DNA from: an uncultured Lachnospiraceae bacterium
GTDB taxonomy: Bacteria; Bacillota; Clostridia; Lachnospirales; Lachnospiraceae
Direction: 5' to 3'
Assembly: GCA_947632515.1 (NCBI GenBank)
Contig: CANRPO010000013.1
Span: 1-64,000, forward strand
Length of the DNA: 64,000 nt
Shown here piece after piece: positions 41,086 through 49,020 of this stretch. The stretch's first letter is position 1; each line of letters opens with the position of its first letter. Below the pieces are notes generated by a model. The model ran no database searches and was not told the origin of the DNA. It saw only the letters and a program-made list of their open reading frames with translations. The translations under genes were made by a program, and so were the position numbers.

Positions 41086-41132
41086 TGAGGCGTGTGCAGA
41101 TACCGATGTGACGTAAAACAGGAGAGACGGCT

Positions 41133-42431
41133 ATGGAAGGGCAGTTAAAAAGCGGGACGGCGCTCACTTCCGAGAGCGGCTGCAAATACAGAGTGACAAA
41201 GCTCTTGGGCTCGGGCGGACAGGGCGAAGTGTACGAGGTGGAGTCGCGCGGCAAGACTTACGCGATGAAGTGGTACTACAGGAACACCGCCACGGAGAAT
41301 CAGAAAGAGATCTTGGACAATCTGATCCGGAAAGGACAGCCGGACGTGTCGTTTTTGTGGCCGCAGGATATGATCTTCCGCGCTTACGGGGAGTCCTTCG
41401 GCTACGTTATGCCGCTCAGGCCGAAGAATTATAAAAGTATCGTAGATATGATGAAGAGAAGGGCGGAGCCTTCTTTTTACTGCCTGTGCAGGGCTGCCTA
41501 CAATCTGACAAAAGGGTACAACGCGCTGCACGCCAAGGGGTACAGCTACCGGGATATCTCCTTCGGCAATGTGTTTTTCGATCCTGATACGGGGGACGTC
41601 CTGATCTGTGACAACGACAATGTCTCCTACAACGGCGACAAGAGCGGCGTCTATGGAACGCCCCGTTTCATGGCCCCCGAGATCGTTCTCGGCAAGGCGA
41701 AACCGTCGAGAAACACGGATTTGTTTTCCCTCGCGGTGCTGCTCTTCTATATGTTTATGCTGAACCATCCGCTGGAGGGCAAGAGAGAGGCGCAGATCAA
41801 GTGCATGGATATTCACGCGATGAACAGGCTGTACGGGACGGACCCGCTTTTTATCTTCGACCCGGACAACAGGGACAACAGGCCGCTTGCAGGCTATCAG
41901 GACAATGCCCTCGTCTTCTGGGATCTGTACCCGCAGCAGCTGAGGGATCTGTTCATCACGTCGTTTACGGTGGGGTTGAGAGAGCCGAACCGCAGGATCA
42001 CGGAGACGAAGTGGCTGGAGACTTTCGCGAACCTGATGTCGGGCATCATCCTCTGCCCGCACTGCGGCTCGGAAGTGTTCTACGACGCGAAGAAAGAGGA
42101 GAACGGCGTGGCCCACACATGCTGGAACTGTCAGAAACCTGTGACGGTTCCCGCAAAGATCGTCATCGGCAGGAGTACGGTGCTTTTGCATGCGGCGACG
42201 AAACTCTACAGGCACCACACGGACGGCGGTTACGATATGGAGACTGTGGTCGGCGAGGTCGTGCAGAATCCCAACAATCCGAATATCTGGGGCATCAAAA
42301 ACCTCACGAAGGAGAACTGGACTTACAGCAAGCCGGACGGAACGCAGATCCCCGTCGGGGAGGGCCGCTCCGCTGCCATCGCCAAAGATGTAAAGATCGA
42401 TTTTGGCCAGTTGAAAGGAGAATTCTGTTAA
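41133..42431 (+). CDS. Ser/Thr protein kinase-like protein with C-terminal zinc ribbon and beta-rich tail (TerY-P-type kinase)
   Basis: LLGSGGQGEVYEV; TYAMKWYY; YSYRDISFGNVFF; ICDNDNVSY (DFG equivalent); GTPRFMAPEIVLG; CPHC...CWNC ribbon. Confidence 0.88.
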   Translation: MEGQLKSGTALTSESGCKYRVTKLLGSGGQGEVYEVESRGKTYAMKWYYRNTATENQKEILDNLIRKGQPDVSFLWPQDMIFRAYGESFGYVMPLRPKNYKSIVDMMKRRAEPSFYCLCRAAYNLTKGYNALHAKGYSYRDISFGNVFFDPDTGDVLICDNDNVSYNGDKSGVYGTPRFMAPEIVLGKAKPSRNTDLFSLAVLLFYMFMLNHPLEGKREAQIKCMDIHAMNRLYGTDPLFIFDPDNRDNRPLAGYQDNALVFWDLYPQQLRDLFITSFTVGLREPNRRITETKWLETFANLMSGIILCPHCGSEVFYDAKKEENGVAHTCWNCQKPVTVPAKIVIGRSTVLLHAATKLYRHHTDGGYDMETVVGEVVQNPNNPNIWGIKNLTKENWTYSKPDGTQIPVGEGRSAAIAKDVKIDFGQLKGEFC

Positions 42432-42432
42432 A

Positions 42433-43608
42433 GTGGTTTTGATGGAAGATCACAGGATCCTGGCAAGGATCATAAAAGATTATCCTGACGCCCTTTCAGA
42501 CCGAAAGAAACTGCAGGCGCTGTTCGCTGATTTTTTCCCGGAGGACAGACTGAAAAGAAATATCCTGCTGATGGTCTTCGACGACGGCGCGGTCGAGAAG
42601 ATGAGGGAGCTGACAAGGCTTGACAGAATGGAATTGCACCGTTTCGTCAGGTCCATAGGACAGGGGTACGGCGTCGCGGACGAGAAGGCGGAGACGGCGG
42701 TCCTCACGTGGGCGAGGGCGCTTGGCGTTTCCCTCGACACGGGGGACAGAACGGCGGCGGAAGAAGAAGGGAGCGGCCTTTTGGAGGAGCCGTTCGCACC
42801 TGTGAATGGCGACGGCGCTTACGAGTATGAAGATACGCCGCGCGGCGTCAAACTTTTGCGGTATATCGATTTCGATGATGAGGTCGTGACGGTCCCGAAC
42901 AGGATCGGCGGCAAGCGGGTCGTGGAGGTAGGAAACCACGCGTTTAAGGGCTGTGTCGGTATCGGGAAGATCATTGTGTCGGAAGGGATCGAGATATTGG
43001 GAAACGGCGTATTCTTGAATTGCAGGGAGCTGCGGGAAGTTGTTTTGCCGGGCACGCTGAAGCGTATCGGCACATCGGATCCGACGGGCTGCCCGAAGAT
43101 TCTGGGGACCATGACGAAGCTGGAGGGGACCTTCGAGTACACCGGGCTGGAGAGCATCACCGTGCCGGACAGTGTGAAGTACATCGGCGAATACGCCTTT
43201 TCTGGATGCGCCAAGCTGAGAGAGGCGGTCCTTCCGGCGGAGTTAAAAGAGATCAGAGAGTATGCGTTCTGCTGGTGTAAAAATCTGCGGGAGGTGACGT
43301 TCCCGCAAGCGTTAGAATCGATCAGGACGGAGGCGTTCGAGGGCTGCGAGTCGTTAGAGACGGTGATCCTGCCCGAGGGTGTGGAGCGCATCGAGCAGGG
43401 AGCCTTCGCAGGCTGCAGAAACATGCGGAGCATCTATCTGCCAGATTCCGTCAGTGAGATCGACGGCGGGCGGGGAAGCGGCTTTCTTCGGACGTTCGGA
43501 CAGCCGGAGGACAGGCATCAAGATTTTACCATACTGTGCAACGCCGGCTCTTACGCTATGAGCTATGCGAGAAAACAGCAGATCAAATGTGCGAAGGCAC
43601 AATTTTAA
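42433..43608 (+). CDS. BspA-type leucine-rich repeat (LRR_5) protein with N-terminal helical domain
   Basis: Repeats IGKIIVSEGIEILGNGVFLNCRELREVVLP, ITVPDSVKYIGEYAFSGCAKLREAVLP, LKEIREYAFCWCKNLREVTFP, LESIRTEAFEGCESLETVILP. N-term LSDRKKLQALFADFFPEDRLKRNILLMVFDDGAVEKM. GTG 42433 or ATG 42442 start. Confidence 0.85.
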   Translation: MVLMEDHRILARIIKDYPDALSDRKKLQALFADFFPEDRLKRNILLMVFDDGAVEKMRELTRLDRMELHRFVRSIGQGYGVADEKAETAVLTWARALGVSLDTGDRTAAEEEGSGLLEEPFAPVNGDGAYEYEDTPRGVKLLRYIDFDDEVVTVPNRIGGKRVVEVGNHAFKGCVGIGKIIVSEGIEILGNGVFLNCRELREVVLPGTLKRIGTSDPTGCPKILGTMTKLEGTFEYTGLESITVPDSVKYIGEYAFSGCAKLREAVLPAELKEIREYAFCWCKNLREVTFPQALESIRTEAFEGCESLETVILPEGVERIEQGAFAGCRNMRSIYLPDSVSEIDGGRGSGFLRTFGQPEDRHQDFTILCNAGSYAMSYARKQQIKCAKAQF

Positions 43609-43619
43609 GGAGGGATATT

Positions 43620-44342
43620 ATGGCAGCAATGAAAAGACCGGGCGGGGAACTGGCGAGCAGACCGCTGCATTTCTTCTGGATCGTGGACTGCTCCGGCTCC
43701 ATGCACGGGGAGAAGATCGGCACCGTAAACCACGCGATCCAGTCCACGATCCCCGAGATGGCGGCGGCGGCGGAGAACAATCCCAACGCGCAGCTTATGA
43801 TCCGCACGCTGAAGTTCTCCACGGGCGCGTCATGGGTGACGGGCAATCCCGTGAATGTGGAAGATTTCGCGTGGGACGATCTGGAGGCGGAGGGCGTGAC
43901 CGATCTAGGCAAGGCGTTTGAGCTTCTGGCGGCGCAGCTCACCATACCGCCCATGTCCGACAGGGCGCTGCCGCCCGTGCTCGTCCTTCTGTCGGACGGA
44001 CAGCCCACGGACGATTACAAGAAGTCTTTGGCCGAGCTGAAGAAACTGCCCTGGGGTAAGAAGGCGGTCAAGATCGCCATCTCCATCGGACAGGACGCAG
44101 ACGACGCGGTTTTGGAAGAGTTTACGGGAAATAAGGAGCTTGTATTGCAGGCGAACAACGCGGCGGCTCTCACGAAGATGATCAAGTGGGCCTCCACTGC
44201 GGCCTCTCTGGTGTCCGCTCCCGCCAGCGTCGCGGCGGATACCTCAGACGGCGGAACGGGCGGTGCGAACGCGCCGATCATTGTGGATATGGGAGGCAGA
44301 CTGCCCGATCCGGACGATATTCAGGAAGGAGACGTTTGGTAG
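43620..44342 (+). CDS. VWA domain protein (TerY-like)
   Basis: FFWIVDCSGSMHGEKIGTVNHAI MIDAS DxSxS; VTDLGKAF; LLSDGQPTDDY. Start corrected to ATG 43620. Confidence 0.9.
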   Translation: MAAMKRPGGELASRPLHFFWIVDCSGSMHGEKIGTVNHAIQSTIPEMAAAAENNPNAQLMIRTLKFSTGASWVTGNPVNVEDFAWDDLEAEGVTDLGKAFELLAAQLTIPPMSDRALPPVLVLLSDGQPTDDYKKSLAELKKLPWGKKAVKIAISIGQDADDAVLEEFTGNKELVLQANNAAALTKMIKWASTAASLVSAPASVAADTSDGGTGGANAPIIVDMGGRLPDPDDIQEGDVW

Positions 44343-44356
44343 AGAGGGTGTTATCT

Positions 44357-45175
44357 ATGGCGCGAAGTATATTCGGGGAGTCCGTGCGGGGAGCATCACA
44401 TATCAGAAACGGCAGGGAATGTCAGGATAGTCTGAAAAAGGTCGAGAAGGACGATGACACGGTCATCCTGTCGGTAGCCGACGGTCACGGGAGCGAGGCG
44501 TGTCCCTACAGCAGGACCGGGGCGGATGTGGCGGTGAACGTGTTCTGTAAGATCATGGAAGATTATCTGGACACCTACGCCGGGCAGCGGGAGTTGCTGC
44601 TGACTTTCCTGAAACGTGAGGGCGACACAAAGGTGGCGCAGGCGATCGATGCGGAGTGGAAACGCAGAATACTGAAGATCCATGCGAACAATAAGCGCGA
44701 AGTCACAGCGGACGCGGAGGGCAATAAGGACAAAACGGCCGTCTACGGACTGTATGGGAGCACGCTGTTAGGGCTTGTTCTCACGAGAGGATTCCTCTTC
44801 GCATTCCAACTTGGAGACGGAGACATTGTGGAGGTGTCCAAGAAAGGCGTGCAGAGCGTGATCGAGGCTGACAGGATCCTCGGGACAGAGACGCACTCGC
44901 TCAGCAAGCCGGAGTCCTGGAGGAAAGCCGTCACCTGCGCCGCAAGGACAGAGGAGGCGCGGGAGAGGCCCGTACTTTATATGCTCTCCACGGATGGTAT
45001 GGCAAACAGCTACAAGAATGAAGAAGAATTTCAGAGGACCTGTAAAGACTACTATGAGCTGCTCAAAAAGCACGGAGCAAAGGCCGTGTCCGACAGTCTG
45101 AAAGGCTGGCTGGAGGAGACCAGCGAGCTCGGCTGCGGGGACGACGTCACGGCGCTCTTTGCCTATCTCGACTAA
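44357..45175 (+). CDS. PP2C-family serine/threonine phosphatase
   Basis: SHIRNGRECQDSLKK; VILSVADGHGSEACPYSRTGADVAV; FLFAFQLGDGDIVEV; LSTDGMANSY; CGDDVTALFAYLD. Start corrected to ATG 44357. Confidence 0.9.
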   Translation: MARSIFGESVRGASHIRNGRECQDSLKKVEKDDDTVILSVADGHGSEACPYSRTGADVAVNVFCKIMEDYLDTYAGQRELLLTFLKREGDTKVAQAIDAEWKRRILKIHANNKREVTADAEGNKDKTAVYGLYGSTLLGLVLTRGFLFAFQLGDGDIVEVSKKGVQSVIEADRILGTETHSLSKPESWRKAVTCAARTEEARERPVLYMLSTDGMANSYKNEEEFQRTCKDYYELLKKHGAKAVSDSLKGWLEETSELGCGDDVTALFAYLD

Positions 45176-48348: not shown

Positions 48349-49020
48349 ATGAAATACGAGTTTGAAGGTACGGTGGAATTTCGAGAGAACGAGAACACGA
48401 TCGCTGTGCCGTTTAACGTGTGGGAGGTGTGCGAGAAGGTAGGAGACGCGCCGGTCAGGGTCTGCTTTGACGACGTCTGCTTTATCTGCGATCTGGTGCC
48501 TAAGGGACAGGGCTACTATGATATTCCCATCAACCAGGAGACGCTGTCGAAGGTGGAGCTTGGCAAGAGGTACACCATATCCATCGAGATCGTGGGCAAT
48601 GTGACGGCGCTGAGCGGGAACAGCCCCTACAGCACGGAGAATCCGATCCGTAAGATCGACGGCATCGATCTGGTGACACAGCCGTGGGACGGCCTGTGCG
48701 GGCAGTCCTGTATCGCCATGATCGCGGGCACTACGCTGGATGAGGCCTGCGATATCATGAAATGCCGCGAGTGGCAGGCGAACATGAGCAAGATGATCGC
48801 CACCCTGGAATATCTCGGCATCCGCCATGCGGACAAGATCGTATATACGTTAGGCAAGACCGTGGAGTTGCCAAAGTGCTGCATCATCATGGAGAAGATG
48901 GGGAGATACAGCCACTATCTGGTAGGGTATGACGGACAGTATTACGATCCGAATCTCGGCGTGCTCAAGGAGTTTGACCACGAGAAGATGGTGGGTTATC
49001 TGGAGGTTGTCGCGCAGTAG
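48349..49020 (+). CDS. DUF1905-like N-terminal domain fused to papain-like/C39-like cysteine peptidase domain
   Basis: N-term FRENENTIAVPFNVWEVCEKVGDAPVRVCFDDVCFICDLVPKGQGYYDIPINQETL; C-term QPWDGLCGQSCIAMIAG with downstream SHYLVGYDGQYYDPNLG. Confidence 0.7.
   Translation: MKYEFEGTVEFRENENTIAVPFNVWEVCEKVGDAPVRVCFDDVCFICDLVPKGQGYYDIPINQETLSKVELGKRYTISIEIVGNVTALSGNSPYSTENPIRKIDGIDLVTQPWDGLCGQSCIAMIAGTTLDEACDIMKCREWQANMSKMIATLEYLGIRHADKIVYTLGKTVELPKCCIIMEKMGRYSHYLVGYDGQYYDPNLGVLKEFDHEKMVGYLEVVAQ

Follow-up and report, generated by a model that had tools for sequence, protein, structure and literature searches.

A TerY-P-type kinase/VWA/PP2C triad in an uncultured Lachnospiraceae bacterium joined by an LRR protein whose helical domain recurs at TerY-P loci

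Four + strand ORFs spanning 41133-45175 of the stretch of DNA analyzed here (the window, 64,000 nucleotides from an uncultured Lachnospiraceae bacterium) encode the three components of a TerY-P triad together with an LRR protein that carries a helical domain (ND) also found in proteins at other TerY-P loci. The unit is best explained as a cytosolic, self-contained TerY-P switch in which the LRR protein would be docked through ND while its LRR part would bind a conserved ligand or client; the probability of this reading is roughly 0.6, and within it we infer the docking, the signal, its direction and its output. The original prediction of a self-contained TerY-P triad with an LRR member fits in both respects, but overlooked the link that ND provides. 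The TerY-P triad itself is already known; as far as Pfam, NCBIfam, PADLOC and the PDB show, the recurrence of ND as a partner of TerY-P is new, as is the four-gene form, and an earlier mention in Anantharaman (2012) or the Gao (2020) supplement is possible.

Components of the four-gene unit

The genes and domains of the unit are as follows.

41133-42431, + strand: Ser/Thr kinase (Pfam Pkinase, 9.3e-20)
Residues ~19-233 of the kinase: kinase domain
Residues 308-333 of the kinase: zinc ribbon CPHC/CWNC (CPHC at 308, CWNC at 330)
Residues ~341-432 of the kinase: C-terminal beta domain with a predicted FHA-like fold
42433-43608 (start at GTG 42433 or ATG 42442), + strand: ND-LRR protein, BspA-type (Pfam LRR_5, 2.7e-42)
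42442-42732, + strand: ND of the LRR protein, an all-helical domain of ~97 residues common to other TerY-P-locus proteins
43620-44342, + strand: TerY-like VWA protein with intact MIDAS (Pfam VWA, 4e-8)
44357-45175, + strand: PP2C phosphatase with metal-site motifs kept (Pfam PP2C_2, 1.7e-35)

The tight packing originally claimed is borne out, with gaps of 1 bp (10 bp if the LRR gene starts at its ATG), 11 bp and 14 bp, and the four protein assignments were likewise recovered by the domain searches. The ATG start of the VWA gene is preceded by AAGGAGGG. No promoter-like site was found in 41086-41132, where the scan was uninformative. Neither signal peptides nor TM segments were predicted from sequence and hydropathy in any of the four proteins, the maximum 19-residue hydropathy of the ND-LRR protein being 1.29, and the unit is best read as cytosolic. 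Genes adjoining the four encode FtsY, IlvA-like, YitT, GH25 and AraC-type proteins; further along the window (48349-49020) lies a gene for a DUF1905 protein whose C-terminal half resembles a C39-type cysteine peptidase.

The kinase has a glycine loop (GSGGQGEVY) and the motifs AMKWY, YRDISFGN and MAPE, and is apparently competent despite the replacement of DFG by DND. All four cysteines of its zinc ribbon are kept in at least 90% of 49 kinase relatives. A structure model of residues 296-432, built with these relatives (pLDDT 94), was compared with the PDB, where the matches listed for the tail were mostly FHA domains (best E 3.9e-3, probability 1.00). The modeled FHA-like fold suggests phospho-dependent docking; the residues with which FHA domains typically bind phosphothreonine are not clearly retained. 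For the region concerned (42018-42428), the accessible part of the TerY-P literature mentions no more than a zinc ribbon, an OB fold or a domain described as beta-rich. PADLOC matches to the kinase (mad6, 8.6e-20; PD-T4-6) reflect the common kinase fold only.

In the VWA protein the MIDAS residues D23-S25-S27...T94...D126 are invariant across ten relatives, and the protein is ~33% identical to a VWA protein from a plasmid ter cluster. The phosphatase contains the motifs ADGHG, GDGD, STDGM and GDDVT. Kinase, VWA protein and phosphatase agree with the definition of TerY-P given in PMC11090510, which cites Anantharaman (2012), namely a TerY-like VWA protein, a PP2C and a Ser/Thr kinase with a C-terminal zinc ribbon.

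Conservation and chromosomal sites within the genus

Absence of the LRR gene from the triads of close relatives had been named in advance as the outcome that would speak against its membership of the unit. The opposite was found. Among 77 congeneric genomes, the 43 that have a VWA gene are also those that have ND-LRR, and the other 34 have neither; the two are never present one without the other, and ND is single-copy in each genome that has it. The kinase search also returned 43 genomes, a figure that counts an unrelated kinase in one of them (G306), and in one fragmentary genome (G353) VWA and ND are present and a kinase match is absent. The order kinase/LRR/VWA is kept at all 41 congeneric loci read.

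In this genus the unit occupies two stable sites behind housekeeping genes, with no defence genes adjoining, which fits the earlier description of it as self-contained. At the first site (11 loci, the window included) the four genes lie between ilvA and yitT, and at the second they lie directly behind rnfB of the rnf operon (29/29 loci with upstream sequence). In the kinase tree the two site groups part by one change with weak support. A TerY_C protein of 115-125 residues follows the PP2C gene at 26 of 30 rnf-site loci (L049-L079); no such protein was seen at the ilvA-site loci read.

All four genes are under purifying selection (dN/dS ~0.03-0.16), with the caveat that for many pairs dS is close to saturation or undefined. 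The kept order at 41 orthologous loci and the low dN/dS indicate that the gene cluster is more than chance, and the four genes are inherited as a unit. The LRR protein is the fastest-evolving of the four (dN/dS ~0.16). Its LRR part is nevertheless no more variable than ND (69% and 65% identity to the window, respectively), and this conservation, about equal to that of ND, is not what an arms-race receptor would be expected to show.

Alternatively, the unit could be a domesticated regulator acting on the metabolism or redox state of these anaerobes, with the LRR protein as its client. Such a role could account for the purifying selection, for the vertical pattern of the two sites and for their location behind the rnf operon in one case and ilvA in the other. 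This interpretation is nonetheless doubtful, since 34 of 77 congeners live without the unit, no pathway is common to the two sites, and the context of the genes in relatives is one of defence or ter.

The ND domain and its partners in other bacteria

The LRR protein consists of the helical ND, a variable linker and the BspA-type LRR. ND was recovered in leave-one-out HMM tests with E-values of 2.4e-8 to 6e-28, and its structure model, built with 45 relatives, is all-helical with seven helices (pLDDT 95). Searches with 45 members against Pfam gave only scattered single-member matches (best E 0.0015), as did those against NCBIfam and PADLOC, and there was no credible match among PDB sequences. 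No known fold could be assigned from the PDB (best E 1.4), and no viral match was convincing (best E 0.29). That ND is a piece of the LRR fold is ruled out, as it is also fused to LRR-free proteins.

In other genera of the family the LRR gene precedes the triad at L082 and L083 and follows it at L085 and L087, and ND is also found in other neighbors of triads, including a protein of 390 residues (L082), an SF1 helicase (L084) and a Sel1-type protein (L088). Gut Firmicutes commonly carry BspA-type LRR genes, and an LRR gene could in principle have been caught among the triad genes as a passenger with an unrelated role. The perfect co-occurrence of ND-LRR and VWA within the genus, the persistence of the rearranged LRR gene beside triads in other genera, and the shared ND make this highly improbable, co-occurrence and the shared ND being the grounds on which it was rejected. 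A transglutaminase-like protein was also seen near the triad at four loci from several genera (L082:9427-10425, L084:228-1292, L085:1661-2683 and L112:11100-12110; the Pfam assignment was made on the L082 copy only).

ND is rare, being present in 2 genomes of a phylum-wide sample of 250 and in 15 of 397 genomes of the family, two of the latter as broken fragments, and the genomes with ND in these samples are mostly triad carriers. Its breadth was surveyed by scanning a genome collection with the VWA alignment alone, which yielded loci from many phyla. A 7-sequence ND model, the cleaner test, detected ND in 18 loci of this survey. With an iterated model that was partly trained on the surveyed loci, 18 of the 34 loci with a complete three-gene core had an ND gene; 24 of 26 ND genes lay no more than two genes from a core gene, 25 of 26 shared its strand, and the 297 ORFs at least seven genes away included no ND. 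ND was undetected in L086 and in 16 of the 34 three-gene loci, and triads without a detectable ND indicate that it is not essential to TerY-P. Conversely, two ND genes were seen away from any triad, one beside BREX (L111) and one alone (L114).

Domain searches identified WD40, TPR, FGE-sulfatase, WG repeats and SF1 helicase as ND partners, and inspection of the sequences added Sel1-type repeats, an FtsK-like protein and a degenerate VWA, the last (L152) being the only fusion seen to a core-like component. On a Methylomonas plasmid (L200:8587-16016) five ND genes stand in tandem behind the kinase, VWA and PP2C genes, and in two of them the sequence resembles Clp-type N-terminal and zinc-binding segments. 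At another locus (L113:8739-13507) ND forms the C-terminus of a 473-residue protein, whose neighbors resemble the ter biosynthetic set.

Defence and ter genes accompany several of these loci. One row (L110:3484-20000) comprises PglZ, an ATPase, BrxL, an ND-LRR gene, a cas9 operon and, further on, a TerY-P kinase, and L111 and L082 are partly similar to it; in L112 and L087 a triad and an ND-LRR gene lie behind TerD genes. The same combination of parts thus serves in three kinds of setting: BREX-linked, ter and stand-alone. Phage carriage was dismissed, with only one distant phage match (32%) and two viral contigs, as was plasmid carriage, the plasmid matches being almost all to distant ter VWA proteins.

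TerY-P has been found to protect against phages, both T7-like ones (PMC7699616) and Autographiviridae (PMC10889362), and ND-LRR genes of relatives adjoin BrxL and PglZ and, in one case, Cas9 as well. The window unit might accordingly be a stand-alone antiphage TerY-P system in which ND-LRR recognizes a phage product and the switch stops growth or blocks replication. This remains on the unlikely side, given the two fixed sites behind housekeeping genes in this genus, the lack of a BrxL match in the incomplete host genome, an LRR part that is not hypervariable, a dN/dS of ~0.16, and the lack of any match of the LRR, VWA or PP2C proteins to PADLOC models.

Co-occurrence, kept order, the shared ND and the proximity of ND genes to core genes tie ND-LRR to the triad, as the preferred reading of a cytosolic switch would have it. 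The varied ND partners, the FHA-like fold, the purifying selection and the lack of predicted export or membrane segments also speak for this reading, while the DND of the kinase, the poorly kept FHA binding residues, the triads without a detectable ND and the two ND genes apart from triads speak against it. In this switch the VWA protein may serve as a metal-dependent scaffold, with the ND-LRR protein docking on the triad through ND. Binding of a conserved intracellular ligand or client by the LRR would shift the balance between kinase and PP2C, and as output the LRR protein, the VWA protein or the bound target would become phosphorylated, a mark that the FHA-like domain may read and that PP2C would reset. 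The varied partners of ND in other bacteria suggest a division of labor in which ND would act as the plug, with the LRR as the working end in this lineage, while elsewhere ND may plug WD40, TPR, FGE, helicase and FtsK-like parts into the same hub. The odds appear about even that TerY-P systems of several phyla make general use of ND as an uncatalogued docking domain for exchangeable sensors or effectors (LRR, WD40, TPR, Sel1, WG, FGE, helicase and FtsK-like), whether the setting is ter, BREX-linked or stand-alone. Such a dedicated domain, with interchangeable parts attached, would offer a handle on what TerY-P triads sense and phosphorylate, and would allow partners of the hub to be predicted from sequence. 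The ND-LRR form would separate ligand recognition, in the LRR, from the switch, and the four genes, compact and stably placed on the chromosome, are testable without a surrounding defence island.

Relation to known systems

The window shares with TerY-P (PMC11090510) a MIDAS VWA protein, a PP2C with active-site motifs and a kinase with a C-terminal zinc ribbon, encoded by genes that are co-directed and adjacent except for one extra gene between them. It differs in that this fourth conserved gene (ND-LRR) lies within the triad and in the predicted FHA-like fold behind the zinc ribbon of the kinase. Linked ter genes are common for TerY-P but not obligatory. The absence of Ter proteins noted originally holds for TerD, which had no match in the host genome (~84% complete); TerY_C was likewise unmatched, a weak result as control genomes were also silent. 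Nuclease, helicase and McrBC genes have been reported with other triads, whereas none was seen beside the window unit.

In the plasmid ter cluster of IncHI, genes for VWA, TerY-C, PP2C and kinase stand in a row resembling that of the window, but the cluster also has TerD/A/B/C and ter biosynthetic genes, and its VWA protein is only ~33% identical to that of the window. Type II and III-A CoCoNuTs (PMC11090510) contain a TerY-P triad within a larger operon, as does the window, but bring McrB/CnuB, McrC, HEPN and coiled-coil genes, none of which was seen adjoining the window unit, and the CoCoNuT LRR, unlike that of the window, is fused to a CDC48-like ATPase. The likeness to BREX lies in relatives, where BrxL and PglZ stand beside ND-LRR (L110), while no BrxL match was found in the ~84% complete genome of the window.

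ND itself resembles the effector-associated domains, EADs (PMC7159879), which are also small, helical, non-enzymatic domains fused to varied effector-like parts (FGE, WD40 and TPR) and often present in several copies per locus. ND matches no Pfam model, and where EADs have a copy fused to a core component, this was seen for ND only once, with the degenerate VWA. The partners also differ, being VMAP or GAP1 systems for EADs (PMC7159879) and TerY-P for ND.
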